From assembly GCA_002868945.1 (NCBI GenBank), contig PKTX01000005.1, forward strand, positions 1 to 64,000: a DNA stretch of 64,000 nucleotides. The letters run 5' to 3'. Position 1 is the first letter of the stretch. The number at the start of each line of letters is the position of its first letter. Positions 46,145 through 48,036 of this stretch are shown piece by piece. The notes below the pieces were generated by a model. It was not told the DNA's origin. It did not search any database and saw only the letters and a program-made list of their open reading frames with translations. The position numbers and the translations under genes are program-made. Origin of the DNA: Desulfobulbaceae bacterium (GTDB lineage: Bacteria; Desulfobacterota; Desulfobulbia; Desulfobulbales; SURF-16).

Positions 46145-46651
46145 ATGAAGAACGAGCACGACCATTATATGCAGGAGGCCCTGTACGAGGCTGCCGAGGC
46201 CCTGGCCAAGGGCGAATTTCCGGTTGGTTGCGTGATTACCCGCAACAGGCGGATCGTGGCACGCGCCCATCGCACCAACAGCCGTGATCATGCCAATGAA
46301 CTGGATCATGCCGAAGTCACGGCCCTGCGCCATCTCTTCCGCCAGGAAGCCGGCACATCAGACAGTCCCTTGACCATCTACTCCACCATGGAGCCGTGCC
46401 TCATGTGTTTTGCCACCCTGATCCTCAACAATGTGCGGACCATTGTCTACGGCTATGAGGATGCCATGGGCGGCGGCACCGGCCTTGACCTGAGCAGCCT
46501 GCCACCTCTCTACCGCACCATGAAGATCAGCGTTATTCCCCATGTCATGCGACAAGAATCCCTGGTCCTGTTCAAGGAGTTTTTCAGCAACCCGGCCTTC
46601 AACTACTGGCCCGACAGTCTGCTGGCCGACTATACCCTCAAGCAACCTTAA
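46145..46651 (+). CDS. Nucleoside deaminase (TadA/CDA fold)
   Basis: A 168-residue zinc-dependent deaminase. The LDHAEVTAL motif gives the His ligand and catalytic Glu, and MEPCLMCFATLI the two Cys ligands. An alternating AEALAKGEFPVGCVI start matches TadA-like enzymes, including GuaD. The C-terminal third differs from tRNA adenosine deaminase TadA, so the substrate (tRNA adenosine, guanine or cytosine) is not settled. It lies 60 bp before the radical-SAM gene on the same strand. Confidence 0.85.
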   Translation: MKNEHDHYMQEALYEAAEALAKGEFPVGCVITRNRRIVARAHRTNSRDHANELDHAEVTALRHLFRQEAGTSDSPLTIYSTMEPCLMCFATLILNNVRTIVYGYEDAMGGGTGLDLSSLPPLYRTMKISVIPHVMRQESLVLFKEFFSNPAFNYWPDSLLADYTLKQP

Positions 46652-46711
46652 CCAGCGAGGGCAGGGAGAACCGCTACATTTTCGCTCATCCTGCCCCTCA
46701 TTCCGAAAACT

Positions 46712-47710
46712 ATGGCCCTCAAACCTACGACCCTGCAGTTCAAGGCCAGGGAGCGCAACGTCTTTTTCCACCTGCTCACCGCCTGCAACCTCGCCTGTCG
46801 TCACTGCTATATCAACACCAGCCAGCACGGCAGCGAGACCGTTTCCCGAGAGACCATGGAGGAGTGGCTCAAGCTCTTTTACACCCCTGAGAAAGAGAGC
46901 AATATCATCTTTCTGGGTGGCGAGCCCACCCTGCATCCGGATCTGGCCCACGGCATCCACTATGCACGCAAACTCGGTTATGCCACCATTACAGTGGACA
47001 GCAACGGCTTTCTCTTCCACGATCTCCTGGACAAAATAGGACCGCAGGATGCCGTACTCAGCTTCAGCCTGGACGGCCCGGACGCCCGGGTCAACGACCC
47101 CATCCGCGGCCGGGGTGTTTTTGAGACCTGCACAACAAACCTGAAAAAGGCCATTGCCCTCGGCTTTGATGTCAGCCTGATCTACACGGTGAGCCGCATG
47201 AATCTGGCCCACCTTGCCCGCATGCCGGCCCTGCTCCAGGAGCTCGGTGTCAAACGGTTTTTCATCCAGGTGATCGGCATCCGCGGCAAATCGACGGCAA
47301 GCGAGGCGCCCCTGCAGCTCAGCCCGGATGAGTGGCTCTCCGTTATCCCGCCGGTGGCCCGCCAAGCGGCCGAGCTGGGCATCCATGTCATCTACCCCAA
47401 GGTCTTTCTGGAGGAAGGGGAAGACTTTGCCTGTGCCGGCTAGGTGGCGGACAACTTCTTTATCTTCCCCAATGGCCGGGTCTACAAATGCCCCCTGTGC
47501 GAGGATTTCCCCATCCACGCTCTGGAGATCAGAGAGAACCGTCTCGTTGCCACCGGAGGCCTCAACGAGGAACGCTTCTTTCAGCTCCATATTGCCGAAG
47601 GTTGTGTGATGAACAAGCTCCTGCAACCCGGCAACCTGCAATACAATGCCGACGGCACGCCCAGACACCGTATCTCCTGCTGTCTCCTCAAACAGGAAAT
47701 GAAAAGATAG
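46712..47710 (+). CDS. Radical SAM protein with SPASM-like C-terminus, interrupted by in-frame UAG
   Basis: The open frame at 46712-47443 encodes the radical-SAM core: TACNLACRHCYINT carries CxxxCxxC, and IFLGGEPTLHPDL is the GGE motif. After FACAG comes TAG (47441-47443), and the same frame continues as VADNFFIFPNGRVYKCPLCE up to 47710 with further Cys (GCVMNKLL, ISCCLLKQ). These resemble the auxiliary Fe-S (SPASM/twitch) half of such enzymes. The downstream half has no good start or ribosome-binding site of its own. The TAG may be a nonsense mutation, a read error or a recoded codon such as pyrrolysine. Substrate unknown. Confidence 0.7.
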
Positions 47711-48036
47711 GCACGGACATCTCTTTCCCGAGCCTTTCTCCAGCTGTTGCCTCCTGCCGGAGTGATGACGATGGTCAGGCGCCCTCCTCAAGAAGGGCCG
47801 GGGCTCACGACCGGCCTCGTTGCGCCTGCTGTGCCGGATCTTTTTCCCGGCCAAACAGCTCCCGCCACTGCCGACCCGCCTGCCTTTCGGCACGCCCAAG
47901 GCACTGGGAGCCAACCTTGGAACCTTGAATTTCATACACTCGGTGGCTGAACAGATAACGAATCAGGATGATAAAGATGCGGTCCTTGAAGACTGAAGAA
48001 AAGACGTCAGAAAAAATTGCCGGCCCGATCGGGCCG
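47711..48036. other. Non-coding gap with heptamer remnant
   Basis: 326 bp between convergent genes. It contains only a short CCTTGGAACCTTGAA heptamer remnant near 47917; no gene or terminator was recognised. Confidence 0.4.

Follow-up and report, generated by a model that had tools for sequence, protein, structure and literature searches.

The Locus and Its Reading Frame

The window, i.e., the whole stretch of 64,000 nucleotides of contig PKTX01000005.1 from a Desulfobulbaceae bacterium, harbors a radical-SAM gene interrupted by a single in-frame TAG codon. The parts of this gene and its conserved upstream neighbor are as follows:

46145..46651, + strand: TadA-like deaminase gene, intact, directly upstream of the radical-SAM gene
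46712..47710, + strand: radical-SAM gene, 332 codons as conserved across the order, broken by one in-frame TAG
46712..47443, + strand: upstream open part, 243 aa, with the radical-SAM core, its CxxxCxxC motif (C25, C29, C32) and C241, the first of the conserved auxiliary-region cysteines
47441..47443, + strand: premature TAG, codon 244 of 332; GAG (Glu) in three congeners, a variable residue order-wide
47444..47710, + strand: downstream open part, 88 codons, GTG first, abutting the TAG, with five invariant cysteines (C260, C263, C298, C323, C324) of a Twitch/SPASM-like auxiliary-cluster domain
47708..47710, + strand: normal stop TAG, the same terminal TAG as in two congeners

The open reading frame starts with ATG at 46712, meets TAG at 47441–47443 after 243 residues, and is then open in the same frame up to 47708–47710. 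When the congener proteins were compared with the window (tblastn), they aligned at 82–84% identity over residues 1–332, straight across the stop and with no gap. Both the coordinates and the frame given in the preliminary description, where an in-frame TAG splitting an otherwise intact radical-SAM gene had been noticed, are therefore correct. A frameshift is ruled out, since the alignment passes the stop within one frame. The part following the stop is homologous to the orthologues along its whole length and contains many invariant columns; hence, the in-frame continuation is more than a matter of chance. Congener ORFs could be matched to 36 regions of the window (ca. 10,700 aligned codons), and the radical-SAM gene is the only one of these with an internal stop. 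The Rfam search found no RNA element within the window.

The product of the upstream gene matches PF00383, scoring only 71 of the 150 bits required for the TadA equivalog. In 91 of the 109 loci compared, among which are identical records drawn from two collections, this deaminase gene immediately precedes the radical-SAM gene (same strand, within 400 bases); in 11 more it is found on the same strand but farther away. On the minus strand, an antisense ORF of 525 aa (46358–47935) in a codon-aligned frame spans the radical-SAM gene together with the terminal part of the deaminase gene; it probably arises as a side effect of G+C-rich codon usage.

Protein Family and Domain Organization

The presence of the radical-SAM core is certain, as evidenced by the match to PF04055 (Radical_SAM; E = 1.4e-20) and by the CxxxCxxC cysteines (C25, C29, C32), which do not vary among 83 orthologues. 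Beyond the core, C241, C260, C263, C298, C323 and C324 are likewise invariant in these orthologues. The consensus of the SPASM/Twitch domains was given as C-X9-15-G-X4-C ... C-X2-C-X5-C-X3-C ... C (PMC6231123). Its first part is matched by C241-x13-G255-x4-C260, all of these residues being invariant, whereas the spacing of C263, C298, C323 and C324 does not match the second part. When an orthologue was modeled with AlphaFold2 (mean pLDDT 89), the best structural matches of the model in PDB were SkfB, a Twitch enzyme, and SuiB, a SPASM enzyme.

Overall, the orthologous protein resembles the Twitch/SPASM enzymes (SkfB, SuiB, anSME, PqqE, MoaA) in having C-x13-G-x4-C-x2-C and additional cysteines after the radical-SAM core, and in its fold. 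It differs from them in the spacing of the later cysteines, in the lack of a match to the Pfam SPASM model in any of 46 orthologues, and in that no NCBIfam equivalog names the enzyme: the best 25 of the 62 matching families all scored far below their cut-offs. The SPASM label used in the preliminary description is therefore approximate, although both the pattern of cysteines and the fold are Twitch/SPASM-like. Codon 244 belongs to a predicted short helix (residues 242–245) between C241 and a beta hairpin, so the stop takes away the auxiliary-cluster domain except for its first cysteine.

Codon 244 in Related Organisms

The best 150 matches listed from 194 genomes include the window's own copy; none of the 149 other orthologues among them has an internal stop. 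In all three congeners, codon 244 is GAG (Glu), so a single G-to-T transversion is sufficient to explain the TAG. Across the 109 loci, identical records included, the position is occupied by N, R, L, V, E, Q, K, I or A, i.e., by nine residues, and in 83 distinct orthologues it ranks as the 25th most variable of 332. Given this variability, no special or unusual amino acid is expected there. An alignment of orthologues had been proposed as a check, with Trp or Gln guessed at this position; the residues found are indeed ordinary, but the nearest kin carry Glu, which leaves the logic of the check unchanged.

UAG as an Ordinary Terminator

Of the 36 matched regions of the window, 12 end in TAG, and seven of these, not counting the radical-SAM gene, have their stop at precisely the position where the congener orthologue has its own. 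The earlier argument that TAG-ended neighbors speak against a general reassignment is thereby upheld. The genome also encodes the release factor RF1 (prfA, 545 bits), and this factor together with the conserved TAG termini rules out general reassignment of UAG, which is a normal terminator here.

Origin and Age of the Premature Stop

The gene is very probably an otherwise intact one in which a single G-to-T change converted GAG to TAG at codon 244. This change would be either a nonsense mutation of recent date, whether fixed or polymorphic, or a base error of the assembly. The preliminary description had favored a single nonsense mutation or a read error as the simpler option, and this preference is supported by the lack of any pylS, pylB or pylD match above its cut-off and of a CUA anticodon among 42 typed tRNAs (see below), together with GAG in the three congeners. 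The recent mutation and the base error are judged about equally likely.

In comparison with the congeners, the pN/pS ratio is 0.19–0.24 upstream of the stop and 0.15–0.18 downstream, and no second lesion was found in the gene. No intact second copy that would relax the selection was found in the genome, where the next best match is only 27% identical. The lack of decay and of a second lesion, along with equal purifying selection on both sides of the stop, shows that the change is either very recent or a base error existing only in the assembly. At the same time, fixation of a null would be surprising in a gene that is present nearly throughout the order and strongly constrained by purifying selection. 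This consideration slightly favors an error in the sequence, a polymorphism or a null that has only just arisen.

Should the stop be genuine, RF1 would terminate translation after 243 residues, and the product would represent a radical-SAM core without the C-terminal domain, on which five of the six cysteines conserved in the auxiliary region reside. Given how well these five cysteines are conserved, such a product would most likely be inactive, i.e., the allele would be a null.

The case shares with ordinary nonsense mutations and young pseudogene alleles a codon one base away from a sense codon, an intact frame and downstream part, a single gene copy and the lack of decoding machinery. No tested feature sets it apart from them; it is just unusually fresh, which makes a base-call error equally possible. 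The phenomenon is an ordinary one.

Readthrough, Reinitiation and Recoding as Alternatives

One could suppose that the UAG is fixed in the species and tolerated there, because leaky termination with readthrough by near-cognate tRNAs yields enough of the full-length enzyme. The downstream part shows no decay, and since position 244 accepts nine residues or more, most readthrough insertions would be harmless. Still, the absence of decay would equally be expected of a recent change or of a base error, and the stop occurs in no relative among the matches listed, so there is no conserved readthrough context; leaky termination is therefore regarded as very improbable.

An equally slim chance is given to a two-piece gene, in which ribosomes ending at the TAG would restart at GTG 47444 and the resulting 88-residue auxiliary domain would join the 243-residue core. 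The downstream part had been described as lacking both a start and a Shine-Dalgarno sequence of its own. The former does not hold, as the GTG abuts the TAG in a geometry compatible with termination–reinitiation; the latter does, as no Shine-Dalgarno sequence is well placed. The only purine-rich stretch nearby, GGAGGAAGGGG (47410–47420), lies 23 nt upstream of the GTG, too far for a normal Shine-Dalgarno sequence. Moreover, this GTG is merely the ancestral codon of Val-245 (Val in 74 of 83 orthologues), which, together with the distance to the purine-rich stretch, makes independent initiation unlikely. The split form is met in no relative (149 other orthologues among the matches listed), and it would part the auxiliary-region cysteines, leaving C241 on the core and the others on the fragment.

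Finally, in view of the frame that is open and conserved on either side of the TAG, a full-length recoded radical-SAM protein has been considered, made by inserting pyrrolysine at the UAG or with the help of some other dedicated suppressor tRNA. This in-frame UAG within a conserved coding frame is what the gene has in common with the pyrrolysine genes mtmB, mtbB and mttB. Unlike them, it belongs to another client family, its UAG is not conserved among orthologues, and no pylS, pylB, pylD or suppressor tRNA was detected. In the organism's own genome, the best scores were 25.8 bits for PylS (TIGR02367, cut-off 178), 68.7 bits for PylB (cut-off 348) and 22 bits for PylD (cut-off 150), whereas in a set of 14 control genomes each of these searches did reach its cut-off, in exactly one genome. 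PylS was above the cut-off in none of the 22 genomes of the family, and no MttB, the usual pyrrolysine client, was above the cut-off in the genome. None of the 42 tRNAs identified with RF00005 and then typed with ARAGORN has a CUA anticodon; this set comprises what RF00005 can detect, and a highly divergent tRNA-Pyl could escape it.

A tRNA-Sec with the CUA anticodon is ruled out as well: the single tRNA-Sec (contig C36, positions 901–994) has the anticodon TCA and reads UGA. It follows that the organism may use UGA to encode selenocysteine.

Also speaking against pyrrolysine are the presence of RF1, the TAG termini of other genes, and the nature of codon 244, a variable Glu/Asn/Arg/Leu site rather than a catalytic one. 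The possibility of pyrrolysine raised in the preliminary description is contradicted by the sub-cut-off scores of PylS, PylB and PylD, by the anticodons of the 42 tRNAs and by the ordinary residues of the orthologues. Pyrrolysine decoding is thus refuted, as far as an assembly of 99.99% completeness can show, and dedicated decoding of this UAG in general retains the smallest probability of all the readings.

Implications for Annotation

With the single G-to-T change as the preferred explanation, the locus is to be annotated as a single gene that is broken or possibly misread, and neither as two genes nor as a pyrrolysine protein. It also serves as a caution that an in-frame UAG followed by perfect downstream conservation is not in itself evidence of recoding.
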